50,771 nucleotides of DNA from Hydrogenophilales bacterium. GTDB lineage: Bacteria > Pseudomonadota > Gammaproteobacteria > Burkholderiales > Thiobacillaceae. Of the stretch, positions 26,536 through 44,591 are shown in pieces; the first letter of the stretch is position 1; the number at the start of each line of letters is the position of its first letter. The notes under the pieces were generated by a model. It saw only the letters and a list, made by a program, of their open reading frames with translations. It was not told the DNA's origin and did not search any database. The stretch covers positions 1 through 50,771 of the forward strand of contig JAGXGM010000089.1 in assembly GCA_024636675.1 (NCBI GenBank), written 5' to 3'. A program made the translations under genes and the position numbers.

Positions 26536-29500
26536 ATGGAAGAAGACCCGCATTGGTACAAGGACGCGATCATCTACGAGTTGCACGTCAAGGCCTTTTT
26601 CGACGGCAACGAGGATGGCATAGGCGACTTCACCGGACTGATCGCCAAGCTTGATTACCTGCAGGAACTGGGCGTGAATACGCTCTGGCTGTTGCCGTTT
26701 TACCCCTCGCCGGGACGCGACGACGGCTATGACATTTCCGACTATCACGACGTCCATCCCAGCTTCGGCGCGATGGCGGACTTTCGCAGCTTCATCGACG
26801 AAGCCCACCGCCGCGACCTGCGCGTGATCACCGAATTGGTGATCAACCACACCTCGGATCAGCACCCGTGGTTCCAGGCGGCACGTCGTGCGCCGCCCGG
26901 ATCGGCCAAGCGAGACTACTACGTGTGGAGCGACAGCGATGCGAAGTACGCCGGCACGCGCATCATTTTCAGCGATTCGGAAAAATCCAACTGGACCTGG
27001 GACGAGGAGGCGCAGGCCTTTTACTGGCATCGCTTCTTCTCCCACCAGCCCGACCTCAACTTCGCCCATCCGCATGTGTTCAAGGCGCTGATGAAAGCGA
27101 TGCGCTTCTGGTTCGATGCCGGGGTCGACGGCATGCGGCTGGATGCGGTGCCGTACCTGTGCGAGCGCGAGGGCACCAACAACGAGAATCTGGCGGAGAC
27201 GCATGCGGTGATCAAAAAGATGCGCGCAGAACTCGACCTCCATTACAAGAACCGCATGTTCCTGGCGGAGGCGAACCAGTGGCCGGAGGACGTGCGCGAA
27301 TATTTCGGCGACGGCGACGAATGCCACATGGCCTATCACTTCCCGCTGATGCCGCGCATGTACATGGCCATCGCGCAGGAAGACCGCCACCCGATCGTCG
27401 AGATCATGGAACAGACACCGGACATTCCGGACAGCTGTCAGTGGGCCGTTTTCCTGCGCAATCACGACGAACTGACGCTGGAAATGGTGACCGACCGCGA
27501 GCGCGACTATCTCTACCAGACCTATGCCAGCGACCCGCAGGCGCGCCTCAACCTCGGCATTCGCCGCCGGCTGGCTCCGCTGCTGGAAAACGACCGCCAT
27601 CGCATCGAACTGATGAACCTGCTGCTGATGACGATGCCGGGTTCGCCGATCCTTTATTACGGCGACGAAATCGGTATGGGCGACAACATTCTGCTTGGCG
27701 ACCGCAACGGCGTGCGGACGCCGATGCAGTGGAACGACAGGGCGAACGGCGGGTTTTCCGCCACCGATCGGGCGCGGCTTTTCCTGTCCCCGATCGACGA
27801 CCCCGTCTACGGCTTCGGCGCAGTCAACGTCGAGGCGCAGCATCGCAATCAGTCCTCGCTGCTCAACTGGACCCGGCGCCTGATCGCCATGCGCCGCGCG
27901 CACCAGGCCTTCGGCCGCGGCACGCTGCGCTTTTTGCGGCCCGGCAACCGCAAGATTCTCGCCTATCTGCGCGAGCACGAGGACGAGACGATCCTGTGCG
28001 TGGCCAACCTGTCGCGCGCGCCGCAGGCGGTGGAACTGGACCTGTCCGCATTCAAGCAGCGGGTGCCGGTGGAACTGATGGGCCGCAGCCGCTTTCCACC
28101 GATCGGCGATCTGCCCTATCTGCTTACCCTCAGCGGCCATGGTTTCTATTCCTTTCGCCTGGCGACCGACGTCGAGGCGCCGTCCTGGCACGAGGAGCGT
28201 CCGGTGCCGCCGGACCTGCCGGTGCTGGTGCTGGTCGACAGCGGCTGGCACACGCTGTTCGCGCGTGCGGAAGATGGGGAAGGGGTGAACCCGCTGATGG
28301 CACGGCGCGCGCGGGAACAACTCGAGCGGCGGGTGATTCCGGGCTACCTCCGGGAACGGCCGTGGTTCGTCGACCGGGATGCCGGCATGGAGAAGTACGC
28401 GTTCAGCATGATGCGCGAATGGTCCACCGAGTCCGACAGCTGGCTGCTGACCACGGTCGATGTCACGCTGCCCAACGCGGGGACGCACCGCTATGCCATT
28501 CCGCTGGCGCTGGCCTGGGAGGACGAGGAAGAAGGCCGCGTCGGCGCATTGCTGCACGCCACCCTGGCCAAGGTGCGGCGGCGTGCGCGGGTCGGCGTGC
28601 TGTTCGATGCCTTCTGGGACGACCACTTCTGCTGCGCCCTGGCGGGAGCGATGGGACGCGGCGAGACGATCAACATGGGCAAGGGCTCGATAGCGTTCAA
28701 AGCAACCGACGCCTACCCGGGTTTTGACTGTCAGGCAGGCGCCGGGGTCATCACGCACGAGCTTTCCGAACGCGGACATTTACGGGTAAACCTCGGTAAC
28801 CGGATGGTGCTGAAGGGCTATCGCCGGCTGCTGGACGGGACCCATCCAGAACTTGAAATATCGCGTTTCCTGACCCTGACAGCGAAGTTCCCACACGTGC
28901 CGAAGCTGGCCGGCTCGGTTGAATTCGCCAACGCGCAGGGGAAAGGTTCGACGCTCGCGATTCTCGAGTGCTATGCAGAAAACCAGGGCGACGCCTGGCA
29001 CTACACGCTGGATTATCTGGAGCGCCATCTGGATGCAAGCCGTGTCAGCACCGAGTCACAGCCGGATGCCAGCCACGCCGCCTACCTGGCGTTGATGAAG
29101 ACACTCGCGCAGCGCACGGCGCAATTCCACCAGGCGCTGGCCCTGCCCGACGACGCAGGCGCCTTTGGCAGCACGCCCGTCACCGCGGCCGATATCGTCA
29201 ACTGGGTCAAGGCGACGCGACACAAGATGGAGCAGATGTTTGACCGCCTGGAGCAGGCGCTGCCGCATCTGGCCGACCCGGCACAGCGCCTTGCCCGCAG
29301 CCTGCGCGAGGCACGCCCGCGGCTCTATCGGCGCATTGTTCGGGCCTCCGGGATACGGGTGGACGCAATGAAGACTCGCTGTCATGGTAACTATCACCTC
29401 GGCCAGGCCTGGCTCGTCAGCAACGATTTCCTGATTGCCAACTACGGCGGAGAGCCTGGGCGCAGCTGGGACGAGCGCCGTCGCAAGCAAGTGCCGCTGC

Positions 29501-29826
29501 AGGATGTGGCGGGCATGCTGCAGTCGCTGGGCAAGGCCGGGGCCACCGCACTGGGCGAGGTGACTGCCGATTCGCCGGAGGCGGGCGCGGCACTGCAGCG
29601 CCATGTCGACGATTGGGAGCAGGCGGCGCAGCAGGCGTTTTTGCAGGGCTACCGCAAGGCCATGGCCGGCCATCCGTCGTACCCGGCCGAGTCCGCGGAA
29701 GCAGAAGCGCTGATAACGCTATTCCTCGCCGAAAGATTGATTCTGCAGGTCAACGACGCACTCGCGCAGGATTCGGCCGGCGTCGGTGCCGCGATGCGGC
29801 ATCTGATCCAGCTCGCGCAACGCTGA
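26536..29826 (+). CDS. treS: Trehalose synthase fused to a degenerate maltokinase domain (TreS-Pep2)
   Basis: A 1096-residue fusion. Residues 1 to about 555 are a GH13 trehalose synthase that interconverts maltose and trehalose. The catalytic acids are present: D203 in MRLDAVPYLCEREGTNNENL, E245 in FLAEANQWPEDV and D311 in LRNHDELTLEM. Residues about 565-1096 match maltokinase (Pep2), which normally phosphorylates maltose for GlgE. Here the key motif HGDxHLGQ reads HGNYHLGQ (N952), and the metal motif DFEGEP reads NYGGEP (N969, G971). Both changes remove acids used for catalysis and Mg2+, so kinase activity is probably lost. It heads a four-gene run; treZ follows by 9-15 bp. AAGGG precedes the start. 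Confidence 0.94.
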   Translation: MEEDPHWYKDAIIYELHVKAFFDGNEDGIGDFTGLIAKLDYLQELGVNTLWLLPFYPSPGRDDGYDISDYHDVHPSFGAMADFRSFIDEAHRRDLRVITELVINHTSDQHPWFQAARRAPPGSAKRDYYVWSDSDAKYAGTRIIFSDSEKSNWTWDEEAQAFYWHRFFSHQPDLNFAHPHVFKALMKAMRFWFDAGVDGMRLDAVPYLCEREGTNNENLAETHAVIKKMRAELDLHYKNRMFLAEANQWPEDVREYFGDGDECHMAYHFPLMPRMYMAIAQEDRHPIVEIMEQTPDIPDSCQWAVFLRNHDELTLEMVTDRERDYLYQTYASDPQARLNLGIRRRLAPLLENDRHRIELMNLLLMTMPGSPILYYGDEIGMGDNILLGDRNGVRTPMQWNDRANGGFSATDRARLFLSPIDDPVYGFGAVNVEAQHRNQSSLLNWTRRLIAMRRAHQAFGRGTLRFLRPGNRKILAYLREHEDETILCVANLSRAPQAVELDLSAFKQRVPVELMGRSRFPPIGDLPYLLTLSGHGFYSFRLATDVEAPSWHEERPVPPDLPVLVLVDSGWHTLFARAEDGEGVNPLMARRAREQLERRVIPGYLRERPWFVDRDAGMEKYAFSMMREWSTESDSWLLTTVDVTLPNAGTHRYAIPLALAWEDEEEGRVGALLHATLAKVRRRARVGVLFDAFWDDHFCCALAGAMGRGETINMGKGSIAFKATDAYPGFDCQAGAGVITHELSERGHLRVNLGNRMVLKGYRRLLDGTHPELEISRFLTLTAKFPHVPKLAGSVEFANAQGKGSTLAILECYAENQGDAWHYTLDYLERHLDASRVSTESQPDASHAAYLALMKTLAQRTAQFHQALALPDDAGAFGSTPVTAADIVNWVKATRHKMEQMFDRLEQALPHLADPAQRLARSLREARPRLYRRIVRASGIRVDAMKTRCHGNYHLGQAWLVSNDFLIANYGGEPGRSWDERRRKQVPLQDVAGMLQSLGKAGATALGEVTADSPEAGAALQRHVDDWEQAAQQAFLQGYRKAMAGHPSYPAESAEAEALITLFLAERLILQVNDALAQDSAGVGAAMRHLIQLAQR

Positions 29827-29841
29827 AAAAGGAGAATGAAC

Positions 29842-31656
29842 ATGGCAACACGACGCCACGATATGCCCTTCGGAACGCAGATCACGCCGGACGGCGTGCA
29901 GTTTCGCCTGTGGGCACCCGGCTGCGAACAGGTCGGCCTGTGCCTCGCCGAAGTGCCCCACGAACCTGTGTCGTCGATGACTGCAAGCGGCGACGGCTGG
30001 TTCGAGCTGACCGTGCCCGATGCCGGAGTCGGGACGCGCTACCGCTTCGAAGTCGGTGACGGCCTGCGCGTGCCGGATCCGGTCTCGCGCTGCAACCCGG
30101 ACGATGTGCATGGCGCCAGCGAAGTGATTGACCCCGAGGCCTTCGACTGGCAGGACGAAGCATGGCGCGGGCGCCCGTGGGAGGAGGCGGTGGTGTACGA
30201 ATTGCACGTCGGCACTTTTTCGCCCGAGGGGACGTTCGCCGGCGTGATCGAGCGGCTGGATTATCTGGTCGAACTGGGCGTGACGGCGATCGAGCTGATG
30301 CCGGTGGCGGATTTTCCGGGCGCGCGCAACTGGGGCTACGACGGTGCGCTGCTGTTCGCGCCGGACAGCTGCTACGGCCGGCCGGAGGATCTGAAGGCGC
30401 TGGTCCAGGCCGCGCATGCGAAGGGCCTGATGGTGCTGCTCGATGTTGTGTACAACCATTTCGGCCCGGAGGGCAACTACCTCTTCGTCTACGCGAAAAA
30501 ATTCTTCACCGAGCGCCACCACACGCTATGGGGTGCGGCGATCAACTTCGACGGCGCGGACAGCCGCCCGGTGCGCGAGTTCTTCATCCACAACGCGCTC
30601 TACTGGCTGACGGAATTTCACTTCGACGGTCTGCGCCTGGATGCAGTGCACGCGATCATCGACGATTCCACGCCGCACATCCTGACCGAGCTGGCGGCGC
30701 GCGTACATGCCGCCATTGATCCTGAACGCCGGGTGCATCTGGTGCTGGAGAACGACGCCAACGAAGCGCGCCATCTTGGACCTGGCCGCTACGTCGCGCA
30801 GTGGAACGATGACATCCACCACGCGCTGCATGTCCTCGCGACCCGCGAGACCGACGGCTATTACGCGGACTATGCGGATGACCCCGCCCGCCATCTCGGG
30901 CGCTGCCTTACCGAGGGCTTCGCGTACCAGGGCGAGGCCTCGGCTTATCGCGATCACACGGCGCGCGGCGAGCCGAGCGCGCATCTGCCGCCGCAGGCCT
31001 TCGTCTCCTTTTTGCAGAACCACGACCAGGTGGGCAACCGTGCATTTGGCGAGCGCATTGGCCAGCTCGCGCCGGCGGCCGCGGTGCGCGCGGCGGCGGC
31101 GGTTTACCTGCTGGCGCCGGCTGTTCCCATGCTGTTCATGGGCGATGAGTTTGCCGCAACGACGCCGTTCTGCTTTTTCTGCGACTTTGGCGGCGACCTG
31201 CGCGAGGCGGTGACCGAGGGGCGGCGCCGTGAATTTCGCAAGTTCGAGCGCTTCGCCGACGCAGCAACCCAGGCCGCGATCCCCGATCCCAACCAGGAAG
31301 AGACTTTTCTCGCCTCGAAGCTCGACTGGGCATCGCTCGATGATCCGGAACGCACGGACTGGCTGGCCTATTACCGCGAACTGTTGCGGCTGCGCCAGCA
31401 GGTCATCGTGCCGCGGCTACACGGCATGGCGGGCCACGCCGGCACATTCGAAACGTTTTCATCCACAGGCCTGCGGGTGAACTGGCGCCTCGGCGACGGT
31501 TCGACACTACACCTGCTGGCTAACCTGTCCGGCGAAGCGACCCGTGTGGCCGTCACACCCGGGGAAACGCTGTTTGCCCTGGCCCTGGCCACGGCGGACG
31601 GCAAAGATGAACTGGCACCGTGGTCGGTGCTGTGGACACTTGAGGCATCGCCATGA
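29842..31656 (+). CDS. treZ: Malto-oligosyltrehalose trehalohydrolase
   Basis: A 604-residue GH13 enzyme that releases trehalose from maltooligosyl-trehalose made by TreY. The N-terminal CBM48-like domain (GVQFRLWAPGCEQVGLCL) precedes the barrel, with YELHVGTFSPEGTF, IELMPVADFPGARNWGYDG, VYNHFGPEGNYL, D267 in GLRLDAVHAI, E303 in LVLENDANEA and D395 in FLQNHDQVGNRAFG. The ATG at 29842 is chosen because AAGGAG is seven to eight bases away; the ATG at 29836 is too near it. Its stop overlaps the next start (ATGA at 31653-31656), so TreZ and the MalQ-TreY fusion are translationally coupled. Confidence 0.96.
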   Translation: MATRRHDMPFGTQITPDGVQFRLWAPGCEQVGLCLAEVPHEPVSSMTASGDGWFELTVPDAGVGTRYRFEVGDGLRVPDPVSRCNPDDVHGASEVIDPEAFDWQDEAWRGRPWEEAVVYELHVGTFSPEGTFAGVIERLDYLVELGVTAIELMPVADFPGARNWGYDGALLFAPDSCYGRPEDLKALVQAAHAKGLMVLLDVVYNHFGPEGNYLFVYAKKFFTERHHTLWGAAINFDGADSRPVREFFIHNALYWLTEFHFDGLRLDAVHAIIDDSTPHILTELAARVHAAIDPERRVHLVLENDANEARHLGPGRYVAQWNDDIHHALHVLATRETDGYYADYADDPARHLGRCLTEGFAYQGEASAYRDHTARGEPSAHLPPQAFVSFLQNHDQVGNRAFGERIGQLAPAAAVRAAAAVYLLAPAVPMLFMGDEFAATTPFCFFCDFGGDLREAVTEGRRREFRKFERFADAATQAAIPDPNQEETFLASKLDWASLDDPERTDWLAYYRELLRLRQQVIVPRLHGMAGHAGTFETFSSTGLRVNWRLGDGSTLHLLANLSGEATRVAVTPGETLFALALATADGKDELAPWSVLWTLEASP

Positions 31657-34600
31657 GCGCATTGCTTGATCAACTGTGCAAGCGCTGCGGAGTGCTGCCC
31701 GACTACCGCGACATCTGGGGCGGTCTTCATCAGACCCCCGATACCACGAAGCGCGCCCTGCTCGCCGCCATGGGCCTGCCGGCGAACAGCGACGAAGAGG
31801 CCGCCGCGTCCCTGCAGGCGCTGGACCGGCGCGACTGGGCGCGGCCGCTGCCGCCGGTGATGGTGGTGCGCGAGCCGGCGCGACCGCACCGCATCGCCAT
31901 CACGCTGCCGCTGGCCGAGGAAAAGCAGGCCTGGCGCTGGCGCCTGCAGCACGAGTCGGGAACGGAAGACGGGGGCGAATGCGTGCCGGCGGAGCTGGAG
32001 GCGGCCGGACGCTGCGAACTCGACGGCGATACCTTCGTGCGACGGATGCTGGTGCTGGATCTGGCGGTGGAGCCGGGCTATCACCGCATCTTTCTGGCGC
32101 GTGCCGACGACCAAGAGGAATCTGCCGAGATGTCGTTCATCGTCGCCCCCGCGACCTGCTATGTGCCGCCGGCCATCCAGGGCGAGGGGCGCACCTGGGG
32201 CTTCGCGGCCCAGCTCTACGGCATCCGCTCCGAACGCAACTGGGGCATCGGCGACTTCGGCGATCTGCGCAACCTGATCGAGTACTGCGCTGCAGTCGGG
32301 GCCAGCACGGTGCTGCTCAGCCCGTTGCACGCGCTGTTTCCGGACGCCCCCGAACACGCCAGTCCCTATAGTCCTTCCAGCCGCTCGTTCTTCAATACGC
32401 TATACCTCGACGTCGAGGCCATCGCCGATTTCGATGAGTGCGAGGAAGCCCGGACGATGGTGCACGTGCCGCAGTTCCAGGCGCGGCTGCGGGCATTGCG
32501 CGCCGCCGACCAGGTCGATTACCGTGGCGTGGCGGGACTTAAAAATCAGGTTCTCGAATGCCTGTATGAACATTTCCGCAGCGAACACCTCGAACACGAC
32601 AGCGAATGGGCGAAGGAATTTCGCGCCTTCCAGGTCGAGCACGGCGAAAGCCTGCGCCGCCAGGCGCTGTTCGAGGCGTTGCAGGCGCATTTCCGCGAGC
32701 AGGACAGCACAGTATGGGGCTGGCCGGCATGGCCCGAGGCTTATCGCGACCCACACGCGCCCGAAGTGGAGGCTTTCTGCGAAGCCCATCTGATGCGGGT
32801 GGAGTATTTCGAATACCTGCAGTGGCAGGCATCCCGACAGCTGGCCGCCGTGGGCACCCGTTCGTGGGAACAGGGGCTCGGCGTCGGCGTGATGCTCGAT
32901 CTGGCGATCGGCGTGGCGGAAGGCGGCGCGGCGGCATGGCGCGATCGCGAACTTTATGCATTCGACGCCAGCATCGGCGCGCCCCCCGACCTGATCAACC
33001 GCATGGGGCAGGACTGGGGCCTGCCGCCATGGATCCCGCACCGGCTGGCTGACGCCGCCTATGTGCCGTTTATCGAACTTTTGCGCGCCAACATGCGCGA
33101 TGCCGGCGCATTGAGACTCGACCATGTAATGGGGCTGCAGCGCCTGTTCTGGGTGGCACGCGGGCTGCCCATCGCAGAAGGCGCTTACGTGCTTTATCCG
33201 TTCCAGGATCTACTCGGCATCCTCGCGCTGGAGAGCCGGCGCAACCGCTGCCTGGTGGTGGGCGAGGATCTCGGTACGGTGCCGGAGTCGGTGCGTGATG
33301 CATTGCACCCGATGAATGCGCTGTCGACGCGGCTGCTGTATTTCGAGCGCCAGGAAAACGGCCGGCTGCAGCCGCCGCAGGCCTACCCTGAGAATGCGGT
33401 GGCCGCCGTGACGACTCACGACCTGCCGACATTGGCCGGCTTCTGGCAGGGGCTGGATATCGATCTGCGCGCCCAGCTTCATCTGTTTCCGGACGATGAG
33501 GTGCGCAACCAGCAGGTGGTCACCCGCTCGGAGGACCGCGCGCAACTGCTGGTGGCGCTGGATGGCGAGGGTGTGCTGCCACCCGGCAGCGGGATGCAGC
33601 CGGTTGCCTTCCCCGAAATGACGCCCGAACTGGCGGCCGCGGTCTACACCTATCTGGCGCGGGCGCCCTCCAAATTGATGCTGCTGCAGATGGAAGACTG
33701 CTTCGGCGTGCGCGAGCAGCCCAATCTTCCAGGCACGGTGGAGCCGGTCTATCCGAACTGGCGGCTGAAGATGCCGCTCAATCTGGAGGCGTGGCACGAC
33801 AACCCCTGGCTGCAGGTCATTCTGCCGGCGATGCGACAGGAACGTCCGGTGGCCCGGGTGTCCGGCCCGGCCGGCGGAATGGGGGAGGGGGTGCGCCTGT
33901 GGATTCCGCGCGCCACCTACCGATTGCAGATGAACCGCGATTTCAAACTGCACCAGGCGACGAAGCTGCTGCCCTATCTGGATGAACTCGGGGTCAGCCA
34001 TTGTTATCTATCGCCGATTTTCAAGGCACGCGCCGGCAGCCGCCATGGCTACGACATCACCGACCACAGCAGCCTCAATCCGGAAATTACCGACGCTGAG
34101 GACTTCGAGCAGTTCGTTGCGGAATTGAAGCGTCGCGGCATGGGCCAGATCATCGACATGGTGCCCAATCACATGGGCATCATGGGCGCCGACAACGGCT
34201 GGTGGCTGGACGTGCTGGAGAATGGTCCGGCCTCCCGCTTTGCCGGCTATTTCGATATCGACTGGTATGCCCGTGCCGGAGAACTGCCGGGACGGGTGCT
34301 GCTGCCGGTGCTGGGCGACCACTATGGCGCGGTGCTCGAAAGCGGTGAGCTCCGGCTCGAATTCAATGCGAAAGAGGGGAGCTTCAGCGTGTTCTATTAC
34401 GAGCACCGCTTCCCGGTGGACCCCCGCGAGTACCCGCACATCCTGGGTCATGATCTGGCACGTCTGCAGGCACGTCTGGGCACCGAGGACATATCGCTGC
34501 TGGAATTCCAGTCACTGGTCACGGCCTTCGGTCATTTGCCGGGGCGCGACAGCATGGATCCGGAATCGGTCGACGAGCGCAACCGGGACAAGGAAGTGCA

Positions 34601-36821
34601 CAAGCACCATCTGGCCTCGCTGTATATCGGCAGCGCCGACATTGCACAATTCATCGACGAGAACGTAACGGAATGCAACGGCACGACGGCACCGGGCAGC
34701 GAGCGTTTCGACCTGATGCACGAACTGCTGCAGGCCCAGGCTTACAGGCTGGCGTTCTGGCGCGTGGCGTCTGACGAGATCAACTACCGCCGCTTCTTCG
34801 ACATCAACGACCTGGCTGCGCTGCGCATGGACAACCCGGAGGTGTTCGAGGCCACGCATCGCCTGGCACATGAACTGCTGGCGCGCGGCTATGTGAACGG
34901 GCTGCGCATCGATCATCCGGATGGTCTGTATGACCCGCAGGAATATTTCGAGCGCCTGCAGGCGATGGTGGCGGCCATGGCACCCAGAACAGATGAAGAA
35001 AACACGCGGCCGCTGTATCTGGTGGTGGAGAAAATTCTCGCTGCCCACGAACATCTTCCGGAGTCGTGGCCGATTCACGGCACCACCGGCTACGACTTCG
35101 CGGCGGCGTGCAGCGGCCTGTTCGTCGACGCCGCTGCCGAAGATGCTTTCACTCACATTTATCAGAACTTCATCCACGCGCGCCCGGATTTCAACGAGCT
35201 GGTGCGCGCCAACAAGCACCTGATCATGGAAACCTCGCTGGCGGGCGAACTGCAGGTGCTGGCGAGCCAGCTGACACGGCTGGCAAAGGGGGACCGCCGC
35301 ACCTGCGATTTCACCTTCAACAGTCTGCGTGGCGCGCTGGCCGAAATCGTGGCCAGTTTCCCGGTCTACCGCACCTATGTCGCACACTGCGAAACTGCGC
35401 CGGACGACGTCCGCTACGTGGAGTGGGCAGTGGGGGTGGCGAAGAAGCGCAGCCAGGCGGCGGATACCAGTATTTTCGATTTCGTTCGCGATGTGCTGCT
35501 GGCGCGCCAGGGACAGGGCCGCGACGAGGGCTACCGCGAAACGGCATGTGCCTTCGCCATGAAGTTCCAGCAGTACAGCAGCCCGGTGATGGCAAAGTCG
35601 GTGGAGGACACCACTTTTTACCAGTACAACCGGCTGGTGGCCTTGAACGAGGTGGGCAGCGAGCCGCACCGCTTCGGCGTCTCGCTGGCAGCCTTCCACC
35701 ATGAGAATCAGGCGCGCGCGCGCCGCTGGCCGCACGCCATGCTGGCCGGCTCCACCCACGACAACAAGCGTTCGGAGGACGTTCGGGCACGGCTCGCCGC
35801 GCTCTCCGAACTGGCGGGCGAATGGCGCCTCGTGTTGTCCCGCTGGAGCAAGCTCAACCGCAGCAAGCGCCGCAAGCTGGACGCCGGGAACGCACCCAGC
35901 CGCAACGACGAGTATCTGCTGTACCAGACACTGCTCGGAATCTGGCCGTTCGAGACGCCGAACGCCGAAGACATGGCGCAGCTTGCGGAACGGGTCGAGT
36001 CCTACATGATCAAGGCCGTGCGCGAGGCCAAGGTGAGCAGTTCGTGGATGAATCCGAACGCAGACTACGAGGCGGCGACCGGCGACTTCGTCCGCGCGCT
36101 GCTGGCGCCCGAGCCGAACAACCTGTTTCTGCGCGACTTCATCCCATTCCAGCAACAGGTCGCGCACATCGGCGCCTTCAACAGCCTGGCGCAATTGCTG
36201 CTCAGGCTCACGTCGCCCGGCGTGCCGGACTTCTATCAAGGCAGCGAGTTGTGGGACTTCAGCCTGGTCGATCCCGACAATCGGCGGCCGGTGGACTATG
36301 CACAGCGGCAGGCGGCGCTGCGGTCGATCCGGGCCGCGTGCGACGAACGCGGCGCGGCGGCATGTGCGGGCGAACTGCTCGACCGGCTGCAGGACGGTCA
36401 AATCAAGCTATATCTGACATGGAAGACATTGGCGCTGCGCCGCGCGTGCGAGGCGCTGTTTCGCGATGGCGACTACCTGCCGCTCAAGACCCACGGCGCG
36501 CGCGCAGAACAGCTTTGCGCCTTCTCCCGCCATGCCCACGGCGAGAGGCTGGTGGTGCTGGTGCCGCGCCTGTTCGGCAGCCTGATGGACGGCGGCGCCC
36601 GGCCGACCGGCGCTGCGGTGTGGGGCGATACCTGGGTCGAGCTGCCGGAGCGCATGCAAACGCAATGGATCAATGTGCTGACCGATCAGCAGATCGAGAC
36701 GCAGCAGCTGGCCGGGACGCCTGGACTGCTGCTGGCGCAGGTGTTCGAGTGGTTTCCCTATGCGCTGCTGCGTGCCAACGAAAATCCCCAATCATTACCC
36801 GAGGAGGAGCAACATGACTGA
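31653..36821 (+). CDS. treY: MalQ-TreY fusion: 4-alpha-glucanotransferase and malto-oligosyltrehalose synthase
   Basis: A 1722-residue bifunctional protein. Residues 1 to about 735 are a GH77 amylomaltase (MalQ) with WGFAAQLYGIRSERNWGIGDFGDL, D490 in LRLDHVMGLQRLFW, E538 in VVGEDLGTVPESV and D590 in THDLPTLAGFW. Residues about 748-1700 are a GH13 maltooligosyl-trehalose synthase (TreY), starting at PRATYRLQMNRDFKL, with DMVPNHMGI, D1087 in LRIDHPDGLYDP, E1126 in VVEKIL and D1370 in STHDNKRSEDVRAR. MalQ lengthens glucans by disproportionation; TreY turns the reducing-end bond into alpha-1,1. Both domains keep all catalytic acids, and the frame is open throughout. Having both on one chain may feed MalQ products straight to TreY, with TreZ encoded just upstream. 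Confidence 0.95.
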   Translation: MSALLDQLCKRCGVLPDYRDIWGGLHQTPDTTKRALLAAMGLPANSDEEAAASLQALDRRDWARPLPPVMVVREPARPHRIAITLPLAEEKQAWRWRLQHESGTEDGGECVPAELEAAGRCELDGDTFVRRMLVLDLAVEPGYHRIFLARADDQEESAEMSFIVAPATCYVPPAIQGEGRTWGFAAQLYGIRSERNWGIGDFGDLRNLIEYCAAVGASTVLLSPLHALFPDAPEHASPYSPSSRSFFNTLYLDVEAIADFDECEEARTMVHVPQFQARLRALRAADQVDYRGVAGLKNQVLECLYEHFRSEHLEHDSEWAKEFRAFQVEHGESLRRQALFEALQAHFREQDSTVWGWPAWPEAYRDPHAPEVEAFCEAHLMRVEYFEYLQWQASRQLAAVGTRSWEQGLGVGVMLDLAIGVAEGGAAAWRDRELYAFDASIGAPPDLINRMGQDWGLPPWIPHRLADAAYVPFIELLRANMRDAGALRLDHVMGLQRLFWVARGLPIAEGAYVLYPFQDLLGILALESRRNRCLVVGEDLGTVPESVRDALHPMNALSTRLLYFERQENGRLQPPQAYPENAVAAVTTHDLPTLAGFWQGLDIDLRAQLHLFPDDEVRNQQVVTRSEDRAQLLVALDGEGVLPPGSGMQPVAFPEMTPELAAAVYTYLARAPSKLMLLQMEDCFGVREQPNLPGTVEPVYPNWRLKMPLNLEAWHDNPWLQVILPAMRQERPVARVSGPAGGMGEGVRLWIPRATYRLQMNRDFKLHQATKLLPYLDELGVSHCYLSPIFKARAGSRHGYDITDHSSLNPEITDAEDFEQFVAELKRRGMGQIIDMVPNHMGIMGADNGWWLDVLENGPASRFAGYFDIDWYARAGELPGRVLLPVLGDHYGAVLESGELRLEFNAKEGSFSVFYYEHRFPVDPREYPHILGHDLARLQARLGTEDISLLEFQSLVTAFGHLPGRDSMDPESVDERNRDKEVHKHHLASLYIGSADIAQFIDENVTECNGTTAPGSERFDLMHELLQAQAYRLAFWRVASDEINYRRFFDINDLAALRMDNPEVFEATHRLAHELLARGYVNGLRIDHPDGLYDPQEYFERLQAMVAAMAPRTDEENTRPLYLVVEKILAAHEHLPESWPIHGTTGYDFAAACSGLFVDAAAEDAFTHIYQNFIHARPDFNELVRANKHLIMETSLAGELQVLASQLTRLAKGDRRTCDFTFNSLRGALAEIVASFPVYRTYVAHCETAPDDVRYVEWAVGVAKKRSQAADTSIFDFVRDVLLARQGQGRDEGYRETACAFAMKFQQYSSPVMAKSVEDTTFYQYNRLVALNEVGSEPHRFGVSLAAFHHENQARARRWPHAMLAGSTHDNKRSEDVRARLAALSELAGEWRLVLSRWSKLNRSKRRKLDAGNAPSRNDEYLLYQTLLGIWPFETPNAEDMAQLAERVESYMIKAVREAKVSSSWMNPNADYEAATGDFVRALLAPEPNNLFLRDFIPFQQQVAHIGAFNSLAQLLLRLTSPGVPDFYQGSELWDFSLVDPDNRRPVDYAQRQAALRSIRAACDERGAAACAGELLDRLQDGQIKLYLTWKTLALRRACEALFRDGDYLPLKTHGARAEQLCAFSRHAHGERLVVLVPRLFGSLMDGGARPTGAAVWGDTWVELPERMQTQWINVLTDQQIETQQLAGTPGLLLAQVFEWFPYALLRANENPQSLPEEEQHD

Positions 36822-37399: not shown

Positions 37400-39502
<2,103 letters not shown>

Positions 39503-39574: not shown

Positions 39575-40855
39575 GTGGAGAAGCCGATGCTTGAACGGCG
39601 GGGACGTGAAAAAGTGATGGCGTTTGTCATGGCGGGAGGTGAGGGTTCACGCCTGCGGCCCCTGACGGGAGACCGCTGCAAGCCGGCGGTGCCATTTGGG
39701 AGCCGTTACCGCATTGTAGATTTTGTGTTGAGCAATCTGGCGAACTCCGATATTCGGTCAATTTATTTGCTGGTGCAATACATGCCGCAGTCGCTCATCG
39801 AGCATATCCGCAAGGCATGGACGGTTTCTGCGCTCTTTTCGGAGCAGTTCGTGACGGTGGTGCCGCCGCAGATGACCGAGGAACATATGCAGTTCGGCGG
39901 TACGGCCGATGCCGTGTATCAGAGCCTGAACCTGATGAACATGCATCGCCCGGATTTCGTGGCGGTATTCGGCGCGGACCATATTTACCGCATGGATGTG
40001 AGGCAGATGGTCCGTTTTCATTGCGAGAACGATGCCGATGTCACGGTGGCCGCGCTGCCTGTACCCCTCGACCAGGTTTCCAATTTTGGCATTATCGAAA
40101 CCGATGCGGCAGGAAGAATTCACGGCTTCCATGAAAAACCCGCTCAGGCGAATCCGATGCCGAACGACCCGCTGCATGCCTACGCATCGATGGGAAATTA
40201 TCTGTTCAGGGCGGATATGTTGAGGGAAGCGCTGGAGGAAGCACACCGGCGCGGCGAGACGGATTTCGGCCACCATGTGCTGCCTCGCCTGGCGAAGTCC
40301 AACCGGGTGTTTGCCTACGACTTTGCAACCAATGTAGTGCCCGGCACCAAGCCTTATGAGGAATCGAGCTATTGGCGAGATGTGGGCACGCTGGATACCT
40401 ATTTCGAGGCGCACATGGATGTGCTCGGTATCGAGCCATGTTTCGACGCGTTCAATCCGCAATGGCCGATTTATTCCAGCCATTACCAGGGACCGACCGC
40501 GCGGGTGATTCGCGGCAACCTCGACAATGTGCTGATGGGCGCGGCGACCATCGTCAGCGACGCGACCATCCGCAACTCGCTGCTGCGGCGCGAGGTGGTG
40601 GTCGAGCCGGGCGCGGTGATCGAGGACTGCGTGATCATGGACTATGTGCGCGTGGGCGCCGGCGCCAAACTGCGCCGCGTCATCATCGACCGGCACAACA
40701 AGATCGCGCCCGGCACCGAAATCGGCTTCGATCACGAACGCGACCGCGCGGCCGGCTATCACGTCACCGAAGGCGGGCTCGTCGTGCTCCCGCTCGGCGA
40801 TGTCCGGTATTACGCTCGCGAGGGATACCGTAACGGGAGCGGATATTCCGAATAA
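39575..40855 (+). CDS. glgC: Glucose-1-phosphate adenylyltransferase
   Basis: A 426-residue ADP-glucose pyrophosphorylase, the committed step of glycogen synthesis. The nucleotidyltransferase motif AGGEGSRLRPLTGDRCKPAVPFG is complete. HMQFGGTADAVYQSLNLM, FGADHIYRMD, HGFHEKP, MGNYLFRADML and SSYWRDVGTLDTYFEAH are all present, then a left-handed beta-helix end (GNLDNVLMGAATIVSDATIRNSLLRREVVVEPGAVIEDCVIM) that holds the allosteric part. The start is GTG at 39575 with GAGG eight bases before, or ATG at 39587 with GGAG six bases before; I cannot decide between them. ADP-glucose would feed a glycogen synthase not found in this window. Confidence 0.96.
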   Translation: MEKPMLERRGREKVMAFVMAGGEGSRLRPLTGDRCKPAVPFGSRYRIVDFVLSNLANSDIRSIYLLVQYMPQSLIEHIRKAWTVSALFSEQFVTVVPPQMTEEHMQFGGTADAVYQSLNLMNMHRPDFVAVFGADHIYRMDVRQMVRFHCENDADVTVAALPVPLDQVSNFGIIETDAAGRIHGFHEKPAQANPMPNDPLHAYASMGNYLFRADMLREALEEAHRRGETDFGHHVLPRLAKSNRVFAYDFATNVVPGTKPYEESSYWRDVGTLDTYFEAHMDVLGIEPCFDAFNPQWPIYSSHYQGPTARVIRGNLDNVLMGAATIVSDATIRNSLLRREVVVEPGAVIEDCVIMDYVRVGAGAKLRRVIIDRHNKIAPGTEIGFDHERDRAAGYHVTEGGLVVLPLGDVRYYAREGYRNGSGYSE

Positions 40856-40958
40856 CCGGAGGGGTTTGCCGCTGACCGAGCCTATGCGCGACAGCCATCG
40901 CAACGACAGGCTCCGCCGTTAATGTGCCTTTTCCCGAAAGATTCCCCGCCAAGCCGAC

Positions 40959-42146
40959 ATGGACACCTCCCTGCTGATTCTCAATGCCGGCTCTTCCAGC
41001 CTCAAATTCGCCGTTTACCAGGCAAACGCCACAGATGACCTGCAAGTGGCCTATCGCGGCGCCTTCGAGGAGATTGGGCGCAACGGGCGCTTCCAGGTGT
41101 TTCGCGCGCCCGATGCCGATGGCCTGATCGATCAGGCCATCGGCGCAGCCAATCACGAGCAGGCGCTGCAGCAGGTGCTGGACTGGCTGGAAACCCGCCA
41201 CCCGGACCGCGCATTCCGCGCAGCCGGCCATCGCGTGGTGCATGGCGGTTCGGATTACATTCATCCGGTGCAGGTCGATACGACCGTGATGGCAGACCTG
41301 GAAAAGCTCATTCCGCTGAGTCCCCTGCATCAGCCCCATAACCTGGCGGGCATCCGCGCACTGGGCCGGTTGCGCCCGGACTTGCCGCAGATCGCCTGCT
41401 TCGACACCGCCTTTCACCACACCCTGCCTCCGATAGCCCGGCGCTTCGCCCTGCCGCGCGAACTCGGCGAACGCGGCATCCGCCGCTACGGTTTCCATGG
41501 CCTGTCCTACGAGCACATCGCCAGCGTGCTGCCGGACTATCTGGGCGCCGCAGCCGAGGGCCGGGTGGTGGTCGCCCATCTCGGCAACGGCGCCAGCCTG
41601 TGCGCGATGCGGCAGGGCCGCAGCGTGGAAACCTCGATGAGCTTCACCCCGCTGGATGGCATCCCCATGGCCAGCCGCAGCGGTGCGCTCGACCCGGGCG
41701 TGCTGCTCTATCTGCTGCGCGAGGAGGGCATGAGCCCGGATCAGCTGGAGGACCTGCTGCAGCATCGGGCCGGGCTGCTCGGCGTTTCCGGCATCAGCAG
41801 CGACGTGCGGGAACTGCTGGAAAGCGACGATCCGCATGCCACGGAAGCACTCGACCTGTTCGCCTATCGCACCGCCCAGGCCATCGCGGGCCATGCCGTC
41901 GCCCTGGGGGGCATCGACGCCCTGGTCTTCACCGCGGGCATCGGCGAGCACGCCGCGCCGGTGCGCGCCGCCATTTGCCACCATCTCACCTGGCTCGGCC
42001 TGACCCTCGACATGGCGGCCAACCAGCACCACGGCCCCCGCATCAGCCAGGCAGTCAGCCCTGTTTCAGCATGGGTCATCCCCACCGATGAGGAAAGGGT
42101 GATTGCGCGTCACGCCTGGGCGCTGACCGACCCGGCCAGCCTGTAA
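40959..42146 (+). CDS. ackA: Acetate kinase
   Basis: A 395-residue enzyme that makes ATP and acetate from acetyl phosphate. LLILNAGSSSLKFAVYQ is the N-terminal phosphate-binding loop; AAGHRVVHGG, ACFDTAFHHTLPP, RRYGFHGLSYEHIA, HLGNGASLCAM, MSFTPLDGIPMASRSGALDPG and FTAGIGEHAAPVR are the family blocks, including the catalytic Arg, Asp and His positions. The length is normal. It is followed by phosphoketolase 60 bp on, which makes acetyl phosphate, so the pair forms a short pathway. A weak AAGCC-type site precedes the ATG. No phosphotransacetylase gene is present here. Confidence 0.96.
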   Translation: MDTSLLILNAGSSSLKFAVYQANATDDLQVAYRGAFEEIGRNGRFQVFRAPDADGLIDQAIGAANHEQALQQVLDWLETRHPDRAFRAAGHRVVHGGSDYIHPVQVDTTVMADLEKLIPLSPLHQPHNLAGIRALGRLRPDLPQIACFDTAFHHTLPPIARRFALPRELGERGIRRYGFHGLSYEHIASVLPDYLGAAAEGRVVVAHLGNGASLCAMRQGRSVETSMSFTPLDGIPMASRSGALDPGVLLYLLREEGMSPDQLEDLLQHRAGLLGVSGISSDVRELLESDDPHATEALDLFAYRTAQAIAGHAVALGGIDALVFTAGIGEHAAPVRAAICHHLTWLGLTLDMAANQHHGPRISQAVSPVSAWVIPTDEERVIARHAWALTDPASL

Positions 42147-42206
42147 CCGGGCGCCGACACAATCGAGCCAATCTTCACCCTTGAACGCACTGAAAAGGAG
42201 AACGCC

Positions 42207-44591
42207 ATGAACAGCACCCATCCGGCTTCCAATCCCGTCCTTGCTGCCGACGAACTGGACAATATCGACGCCTACTGGCGCGCCTGCAATTACCTGGCGG
42301 CGGGCATGATCTACCTGCGCGACAATCCCCTGCTGCGCGAGCCGCTGCAGCCCGCGCACATCAAGGAACGCCTGCTCGGTCACTGGGGTGCGAGCCCTGG
42401 CCTCAGCTTCGCCTACGTCCATCTCAACCGGCTGATCAACAAGTACGACCTCGACGCCATCTTCCTGGCCGGCCCCGGCCATGGCGCGCCCGGCGTGCTG
42501 GCGCCGGTGTACCTGGAAGGGGTCTACAGCGAGGTGTATCCCAACAAGGGCGAAGACGAGGCGGGCATGCGCCGTTTCTTCAAGGCGTTTTCCTTCCCTG
42601 GCGGCATCGGCAGCCACTGCACCCCGGAAACCCCAGGCTCGGTCCACGAAGGCGGCGAACTCGGCTACAGCGTCTCGCACGCCTTCGGCGCGGCGTTCGA
42701 CAACCCCGATCTCCTGGTGGCCGTGATGGTGGGCGACGGCGAGGCCGAAACCGGGCCGCTGTCGGCATCGTGGCATTCCAACAAGTTCCTTAACCCGATC
42801 CGCGATGGCGCGGTGCTGCCCATCCTGCATCTCAACGGCTACAAGATCCACAACCCGACGCTGCTGGCGCGCATCTCGCACGATGAACTGGAGAATCTGT
42901 TCCTCGGCTATGGCTGGACCCCGTATTTCGTCGAGGGATCGGACCCGATGACGATGCATGCCGAGATGGCCCGGGTGATGGAGCAGTGCGTGCTGGATAT
43001 CCGCCGCATCCAGGACGAGGCGCGGCGAAGCGGCATCCCTGGACGACCGCGCTGGCCGATGATCGTGTTGCGCTCGCCCAAAGGCTGGACCGGTCCGGCC
43101 GAGGTGGATGGCAAGAAAGTCGAGGGTTTCTGGCGTTCGCACCAGGTGCCGCTGGCCGGTGTGCGCAGCAACCCGGCCCACCTGCAGCAACTGGAAGCCT
43201 GGCTGCGCAGCTATGACCCCGACACCCTGTTCGACGAGACAGGAAAACTGCGCCCCGAACTGAGGGCGCTGGCGCCCCAGGGCAACCGCCGCATGGGCGC
43301 CAACCCGCATGCCAATGGCGGTCACTTGCGCCGCGCGCTGCGGATGCCGGATTTCCGCGATTACGCCGTCGAATTACCGGGCCCCGGCAAGATCACGGCG
43401 GAAAACACGCGCCCGCTGGGCAAGCTGCTGCGCGACGTGATGGCGCAGAACATGGACAATTTCCGCGTCTTCGGCCCGGATGAGAACGCCTCCAACAGGC
43501 TGGACAATCTCTATGAGGTGACCAAGAAAACCTGGCTCGCCGACATCTACCCGGAAGATGCCGGCGGCAGCGAGCTGTCGCCCGACGGCCGGGTGATGGA
43601 AATGCTCTCGGAACACACCCTGGAGGGCTGGCTGGAAGGCTATCTGCTGACCGGCCGGCACGGCTTCCTGTCCACCTACGAGGCCTTCGTCCATGTGATC
43701 GACTCGATGTTCAACCAGCACGCCAAGTGGCTGGCGATGTCGAGGGAAATCTCGTGGCGGGCGCCGGTGGCGTCGCTCAATCTGCTGATCACCTCGACGG
43801 TGTGGCGCCAGGACCACAACGGTTTCACCCATCAGGATCCGGGCTTCCTCGACGTGGTGGTGAACAAGAGCCCCGCCGTGACCCGCATTTACCTGCCGCC
43901 GGATGTCAACACGCTGCTGGCGACGGCCGCCCACTGCCTGAAAAGCACCGATTACATCAACGTGATCGTCTGCGACAAGCAGAAGCACGTGCAGTACCTG
44001 GACATGGACGCGGCGATCAAGCACTGCACCAAGGGCATCGGCATCTGGGAATGGGCGAGCAACGACGCCGGTGCTGAGCCCGACGTGGTGATGGCCTGCG
44101 CCGGCGACATTCCCACCAAGGAGGCGCTGGCGGCGACGGTGCTGCTGCGCGAGCACTTTCCCGAGCTGAAGGTCCGCTTCATCAACGTGGTCAACCTGTA
44201 CAAGATGGTGCCGCCGAGCGAACATCCGCACGGCCTCTCGGATCGGGATTTCGACAGCCTGTTCACCCTCGATCGCCCGGTGATATTCAACTTCCATGGC
44301 TACCCCTGGCTGATCCATCGCCTGGCTTACCGCCGCACCAACCACGACAACATGCACGTGCGCGGCTACAAGGAGAAGGGCAGCATCAACACGCCGCTGG
44401 AACTGGCGATCGAGAACGAAATCGACCGCTTCAGCCTGGCCATCGACGCGATCAACCGCGTCCCCGGCCTGCATGTGGCCGGCGCCCACGTCAAGGAAAA
44501 GCTGCGCGACATGCAGATCGAGTGCCGCAATTACGCCCACGAACACGGGGTGGATTTGCCGGAAGCGGAGGCATGGAAGTGGCCGTATTGA
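42207..44591 (+). CDS. xfp: Phosphoketolase
   Basis: A 794-residue thiamine diphosphate enzyme that splits xylulose 5-phosphate (and often fructose 6-phosphate) into acetyl phosphate plus glyceraldehyde 3-phosphate or erythrose 4-phosphate. [114 protein letters not shown] and [19 protein letters not shown] are the family blocks, covering ThDP/Mg and substrate-phosphate sites. AAAAGGAG precedes the ATG. With ackA just upstream it gives one ATP and acetate per cleavage. Whether it prefers the five- or six-carbon substrate cannot be read. Confidence 0.97.

Follow-up and report, generated by a model that had tools for sequence, protein, structure and literature searches.

Fusions of TreS, the trehalose/maltose isomerase, to a maltokinase have been described in Pseudomonas aeruginosa (PA2152) and Estrella lausannensis (TreS-Mak), and their kinases are reported to be active and to work with GlgE (PMC8084333, PMC7935935). 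In mycobacteria, the maltokinase (Mak/Pep2; PDB entries 4u94, 4o7o and 5jy7) is a separate protein that docks on the beta-sandwich of TreS (PMC6509496). In the solved Mak of M. vanbaalenii, whose residue numbers (D305, D322 and so on) we follow here, D305 is the putative base and D322 and Q310 bind Mg, while E324 contacts only an Mg-bound water and is not itself an Mg ligand. The equivalent of D322N completely abolished the activity of a mycobacterial maltokinase, S136A lowered maltokinase activity by 97%, and a change at N137 was inactivating (PMC4306142). The TreS of Thermus thermophilus has a C-terminal extension reported to stabilize it and to lower hydrolysis (PMC2270844), and without this added part the enzyme was less stable and more hydrolytic (Wang 2007, cited second-hand in PMC2270844). 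Kinship of that extension with kinases is uncertain, as the same paper calls it alpha-amylase regions. When plasmids were searched for relatives (289 records), no Thermus appeared among the 40 inspected.

Here we analyzed a window of 50,771 nucleotides (contig JAGXGM010000089.1, our contig C35, from the 2.54 Mb, 81% complete assembly GCA_024636675.1 of a Hydrogenophilales bacterium) that encodes a fusion of this type. The window protein shares domain order, length, TreS motifs and kinase fold with PA2152 and the E. lausannensis TreS-Mak but, unlike them, lacks the base, the metal Asp and the P-loop Ser/Asn, and its gene sits with TreZ and MalQ/TreY. It has the fold and the Lys, Gln and His motifs in common with the mycobacterial enzymes, from which it differs by the changes HGD to HGN, DFE to NYG and SN to GH and by being fused rather than separate. 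Like pseudokinases generally (reviewed in PMC8141879), it has kept its fold, lost catalytic residues and been retained under selection; unlike them, it belongs to the kinases that act on a small sugar molecule and is joined to an isomerase of the amylase family. We found no report of a TreS pseudokinase in the literature searched, and a mention in Chandra 2011 is not excluded.

The fusion gene and its neighborhood

The TreS-maltokinase fusion is an open reading frame of 1096 codons at 26536-29826 on the forward strand. Its TreS half (26536..28161, forward strand, aa 1-542) scored 908.6 bits against TIGR02456 (cut-off 678.35), and the codons of D203, E245 and D311, which we take to be the catalytic triad acids of TreS, are all intact. 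The maltokinase-like half (28201..29823, forward strand, aa 556-1096), predicted to be catalytically dead, missed the cut-off of NCBIfam TIGR02457 (361.8 vs 375.05 bits). Nine bases after the stop of the fusion begins TreZ (29836..31656, forward strand; TIGR02402, 724.1 bits, cut-off 538.8), and the frame of a MalQ-TreY fusion (31653..36821, forward strand; NF011077, 2532.7 bits, cut-off 2148) overlaps the TreZ stop by 4 bases. The GlgX debranching enzyme is encoded at 37400..39502 on the reverse strand (TIGR02100, 1015.7 bits, cut-off 640.9) and GlgC, the glucose-1-phosphate adenylyltransferase, at 39575..40855 on the forward strand (NF002023, 549.9 bits, cut-off 458). From 39575 to 44591, GlgC, an acetate-kinase-family gene and a phosphoketolase follow one another on one strand, an order also found in the stretches L104 and L110. 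GlgE was not found within the window; the sole GlgE match of the genome lies on another contig, C67.

Changed and kept residues of the kinase half

The initial annotation, made without database searches, had reported that HGDxHLGQ reads HGNYHLGQ (N952) and that IDFEGEP reads IANYGGEP (N969 and G971). Both letters and codons proved correct. In HGNYHLGQ (29383..29406, forward strand) the catalytic base D305 is replaced by N952 (AAC, 29389-29391), with H954 and the Mg-binding Q957 kept (roles from PMC4306142); in IANYGGEP (29434..29457, forward strand) the metal Asp D322 is replaced by N969 (AAC, 29440-29442) and E324 by G971 (GGC, 29446-29448). The alignment that it had proposed was run, and against active relatives the three codons correspond to the base of HGD and to the metal Asp and the Glu of DFE, confirming the substitutions. 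Its further statement that all three acids act as base or Mg ligands held only in part, the DFE Glu having been wrongly counted as a metal ligand (PMC4306142), while its statement that the TreS acids are intact held. The flanking residues H950, H954, Q957, E973 and D990 are kept, but GEP is not constant, reading GAP, GVP or GIP in close relatives of the window gene, and the DVAGM stretch also varies (DVACM, DVATM, DVASM).

The list of losses was moreover incomplete, as the P-loop Ser/Asn and a C-terminal motif are changed too. The degenerate phosphate loop ERGHL (28768..28782, forward strand) carries G747 in place of S136 and H748 in place of N137 in the alignment, where the last three places read SNT or SNS in most active relatives; N137H is also present in one kinase beside GlgE (L140). 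Positions E1071, Y1074, E1075, R1079, P1080 and P1086 (29746..29793, forward strand) are conserved in active kinases and mostly replaced in the clade of the window gene. Altogether, 47 positions are conserved in at least 95% of 96 GlgE-linked kinases and 15 of them are lost in that clade (11 copies), including the P-loop Ser/Asn, the base (9/11 copies), the metal Asp and the six C-terminal positions.

Because base, metal Asp and P-loop Ser/Asn are lost, we consider it very unlikely that the window protein works as a maltokinase, an inference from sequence for which no activity was measured. By alignment and codons, the ATP-site lysine K760 (28813..28815, forward strand; K149 of the M. vanbaalenii Mak) is retained, and since it persists together with the Mg-binding Gln310, the His of HGD and the Asp of DVA, residual ATP binding or weak activity remains possible.

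The substitutions are fixed in a clade

The gene was present in 8 of 55 other same-genus (Thiobacillus) genomes searched, and all eight copies have HGNYHLGQ and ANYGG, sharing HGN, N969 and G971 with the window protein. A sequencing or assembly artefact, which would explain the substitutions away, found no support and is all but excluded by these identical changes in eight further genomes; it was rejected. S136G, N137H or R, D305N, D322N and E324G occur in 9/9 Thiobacillus copies. None of the eight other Thiobacillus genomes with a dead copy gave a GlgE match.

In a kinase tree (FastTree, midpoint root) the Thiobacillus copies form one clade with those of G403 (family f16) and G276 (f50), with support 1.0. 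D322N, E324G and the P-loop loss are common to all 11 members, which shows the loss to be fixed in the clade. Since D322N is found in all 11 and D305N only in the nine Thiobacillus copies, the metal site was probably the first to change. Other degenerate kinases stand at separate places of the tree: G092/G135 (P-loop, Q310K, D322G), G094, G169, a trio of f95, G398 and G592. The number of independent losses is approximate, because several deep nodes are poorly supported.

A second, intact copy in the same genome

Contig C67 carries GlgB, GlgE and a second TreS-maltokinase in one operon (L032, 6197-13568), whose kinase is intact, with EQSNT, HGDYHLGQ and TDFEGEP and 475.0 bits against TIGR02457 (cut-off 375.05). 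The initial annotation had asked for glgE and another maltokinase to be looked for, and both were thus found. Its proposal that GlgE is not supplied with maltose 1-phosphate from the window gene is supported by this separate operon.

C67 as a binning contaminant was considered and rejected on its MutS, which shares 85-94% identity with same-genus matches of full length and 50-67% with those from other families (64 of 70 genomes gave a match). The tetranucleotide profile of C67 resembles that of other sampled contigs, which is a weak test. The GlgE of C67 is closest (79-80%) to those of G282 and G309, of another family, and no GlgE was found in 18 other same-genus genomes searched, from which we infer that the operon was probably acquired.

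Kinase state follows GlgE redundancy

We assembled 126 kinases from 118 genomes by sampling the order (399 genomes) and the phylum (397 genomes, some of them in both samples) and adding the eight same-genus genomes. The order and phylum searches scored only the three best initial candidates per genome, and all listed matches were fetched. K149, D305, Q310 and D322 were scored as core residues. Where the fetched stretch (<=20 kb) also held GlgE, none of 96 kinases had a changed core, and where it did not, 18 of 30 had one; leaving out the eight extra same-genus genomes, the counts were 0/96 and 10/22. Sorted by need, it was changed in 0/96 sole intact kinases of GlgE genomes and in 18/30 others, namely 14/18 in genomes without a GlgE match and 4/12 in genomes with a second intact kinase. 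That both sortings give identical totals is a coincidence of membership. When the definition was widened to take in S136, H307 and any residue except N or H at N137, kinases were changed in 7/98 vs 21/28, the seven being one f95 clade with H307R/E324D beside GlgE. These counts show the association of residue loss with GlgE redundancy. The Fisher P values (3e-14 narrow, 2e-12 wide) are not true probabilities, because the sequences are related and kinship was ignored. GlgE absence rests on one protein query and partly on draft genomes, and the P-loop column may be misaligned in the most divergent rows (L234, L237).

A changed core residue was met in families f1, f5, f16, f24, f34, f36, f50, f66 and f95. 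In G092, G135, G276, G619 and G628 a degenerate fused kinase is accompanied by an intact standalone kinase that lies beside GlgE at another place in the genome; the fused copies of G619 and G628 have lost the P-loop and H307 and keep the four core residues. Kinase death is common and not automatic, since 12 of the 30 redundant kinases keep all four: 4/18 without GlgE (L119, which has H307T, L120, L142 and L213) and 8/12 with a second kinase, including both copies in G282 and in G309. Among these eight, L223 and L230 are GlgE-linked partners, and L224 and L229 are without P-loop and H307.

Several further observations were made in these samples. In L134 and L135 (G309 and G282) GlgE is followed each time by a tandem pair of TreS-kinase fusions whose cores are both intact, an exception to decay by redundancy. 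The seven kinases of one f95 genus (L221, L226-L228, L231-L233) read HGDFRLGQ and DFDGDP or DFDGNP beside GlgE, and their joint H307R and E324D might represent an altered but working maltose site. L148 reads HSDYHLGQ in a fusion beside GlgE, the HGD Gly, which is not a scored site, being Ser. This kinase, the tandem fusions, the seven f95 kinases and L119, L120, L142 and L213 all remain in the counts above. In L142 (G358), GlgB is directly followed by an intact TreS-kinase with no GlgE match in the genome, conceivably a recent GlgE loss. The GlgE matches of G766, G653, G840 and G843 have one internal stop each.

The HGN motif beyond the samples

A separate scan of genome contigs for HGN[YF]HLGQ returned 69 stretches, 47 of them with a kinase by profile (7 same-genus and 40 others). 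By record title, the 40 include Bacteroidota, Chloroflexota, cyanobacteria, Nitrosomonas, Sedimenticola and more. Many lineages combine HGN with an unaltered DF Asp, so GlgE and second kinases were checked. A GlgE match at E 1e-20 was absent in 27 of the 40 genomes, which are of unstated completeness and in several cases metagenome bins. The other 13 do have GlgE, and each also encodes a second kinase that reads HGD; in the nine with Bacteroidota titles this second kinase is a separate frame of 500-595 aa. The HGN copy of G834 is itself frame-broken, and the GlgE match of G816 is in pieces. D to N in HGD as a mark of death by itself was rejected as insufficient.

These data bear on the possibility that the window protein is still a kinase, of altered mechanism or with another substrate, with Asn in the HGN site and the metal held by Q957 and other residues. 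In its favor are the kept K760, H950, H954, Q957 and D990 and the spread of HGN beside an intact DF Asp. Against it, the single metal-site Asp to Asn exchange abolishes mycobacterial Mak activity (PMC4306142), the P-loop is also changed, and such a copy was never the sole kinase for a GlgE in the genomes examined. We regard this explanation as very unlikely.

Selection, retention and fold of the kinase half

Across eight Thiobacillus copies (28 pairs) the kinase had a median dN/dS of 0.28 and TreS one of 0.12, with a kinase/TreS divergence ratio of 2.7; eight groups of active kinases gave dN/dS of 0.14-0.52 and ratios of 2.0-5.4. At twenty-five positions all 11 dead-clade copies have the same residue, one that is rare (<10%) in the 96 active kinases; these include L749, W959, N969, G971 and W978; W959 (29410..29412, forward strand) is present in 11/11 copies and is Leu in 96/96 GlgE-linked kinases. 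Three of the 25 are linker columns often gapped in active kinases. The frames of the dead clade are open in all 11 copies, from three families, nine of them complete and two cut by contig ends (L108, L152).

A referee might prefer passenger decay, by which the domain lost its purpose after GlgE loss or gain of a second kinase and is drifting, its frame merely not yet cut. In support of this, the losses track redundancy, and the kinase/TreS ratio of the f95 trio is elevated (9.2 vs 5.4 in active f95, at a dN/dS of 0.29), which is what relaxed constraint would produce. The remaining dead sets give no uniform picture, with dN/dS and ratio of 0.25 and 4.8 for an f34 pair and 0.16 and 2.5 for the f16/f50 pair, which is near saturation. 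Against it, the Thiobacillus values lie inside the active-kinase range, the frames are open throughout with their 25 clade-invariant residues, and, among the three best initial candidates scored per genome, TreS frames above cut-off in the order sample were all long enough for the kinase half, save one split between contigs (G089). Two TreS matches below cut-off (G278, G155) were short frames. We judge passenger decay unlikely. A pseudokinase, as the initial annotation had proposed, is supported by the residue loss and by the purifying selection shown here: catalytic residues are lost, the loss is fixed in a clade and selection persists. The structural or regulatory role that it suggested, like any non-catalytic function, is only inferred.

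Consistent with a preserved fold, AlphaFold predicted the kinase half alone with pLDDT 86.3 and pTM 0.86, and the best PDB matches of this model were the maltokinases 4u94 (TMt 0.82, E 8.8e-26), 4o7o and 5jy7, with TMt of 0.77-0.85 for the maltokinase chains ranked 1-6, 10 and 14. The predicted model has the maltokinase fold. The whole-length prediction (pLDDT 75.3, pTM 0.52) had a poor TreS half, so domain docking was not read from it.

The remodeled pocket (W959, W978, L749, N969) may alternatively bind a sugar or nucleotide and regulate TreS allosterically. Of the 25 positions invariant in the clade, three (744, 749, 752) fall at the P-loop and five (959, 966, 969, 971, 978) within the HGN-NYGG stretch, and in the complex from mycobacteria some elements of the ATP site also belong to the interface with TreS (PMC6509496). 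However, no ligand is known, and 9/9 Thiobacillus copies no longer have an intact E326-R342 pair in the maltose pocket (it is kept in one of the two remaining clade members). Such new ligand sensing is possible.

Discussion

Our preferred reading, to which we give a probability of about 0.72 although nothing has been assayed, is that the pseudokinase is kept to stabilize or tune TreS, with maltose phosphorylation switched off, and that the operon makes trehalose. The fusion would then contain one working enzyme, TreS, interconverting maltose and trehalose, and a kinase domain that keeps its fold and no longer phosphorylates maltose; this loss of activity in the protein itself is inferred. Once phosphorylation no longer draws maltose off, TreS would equilibrate toward trehalose and, together with MalQ and TreY-TreZ, would constitute a trehalose-making operon. 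That the locus should make trehalose, given a dead kinase and MalQ, TreY and TreZ in the operon, is an inference, as is the direction of flux. Maltose 1-phosphate would not be formed as a dead-end product at the window locus. In line with its possible harm, an attempt to transform E. coli with an active fusion was unsuccessful, and its authors presumed toxic maltose 1-phosphate to be the cause (PMC7935935); published abstracts describe its toxicity upon GlgE loss in M. tuberculosis. This rationale is not universal, because a glgE deletion strain of P. aeruginosa accumulated maltose 1-phosphate and was studied alive (PMC8084333).

The domain would be retained because TreS now needs to have it docked as a structural partner, possibly one tuned by a ligand. 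Against such a need, the TreS enzymes of other bacteria function with no such domain (solved chains of ~550 aa). The stabilizing role is inferred; a structural role is the simplest reading, and a sensing role may also apply.

A bolder reading, which we hold to be somewhat less likely than not, is that fusions across several bacterial phyla repeatedly become TreS-pseudokinases after GlgE is lost or comes to be served by a second kinase, that TreS flips from feeding alpha-glucan to making trehalose, and that the dead domain, which has a conserved pocket of its own, takes on new work as an obligate subunit with a structural or ligand-sensing task.

Annotating such genes by the name of their family (TreS-Pep2, putative maltokinase) would predict a GlgE pathway and a maltose 1-phosphate that need not exist, and the GlgE-redundancy rule offers a simple call of live and dead copies from sequence. 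Related bacteria often keep an apparently dead kinase when its product is no longer needed. This repeated formation of pseudokinases seems to be triggered by metabolism and offers a natural experiment in how a domain of an enzyme can outlast the chemistry that it once performed.
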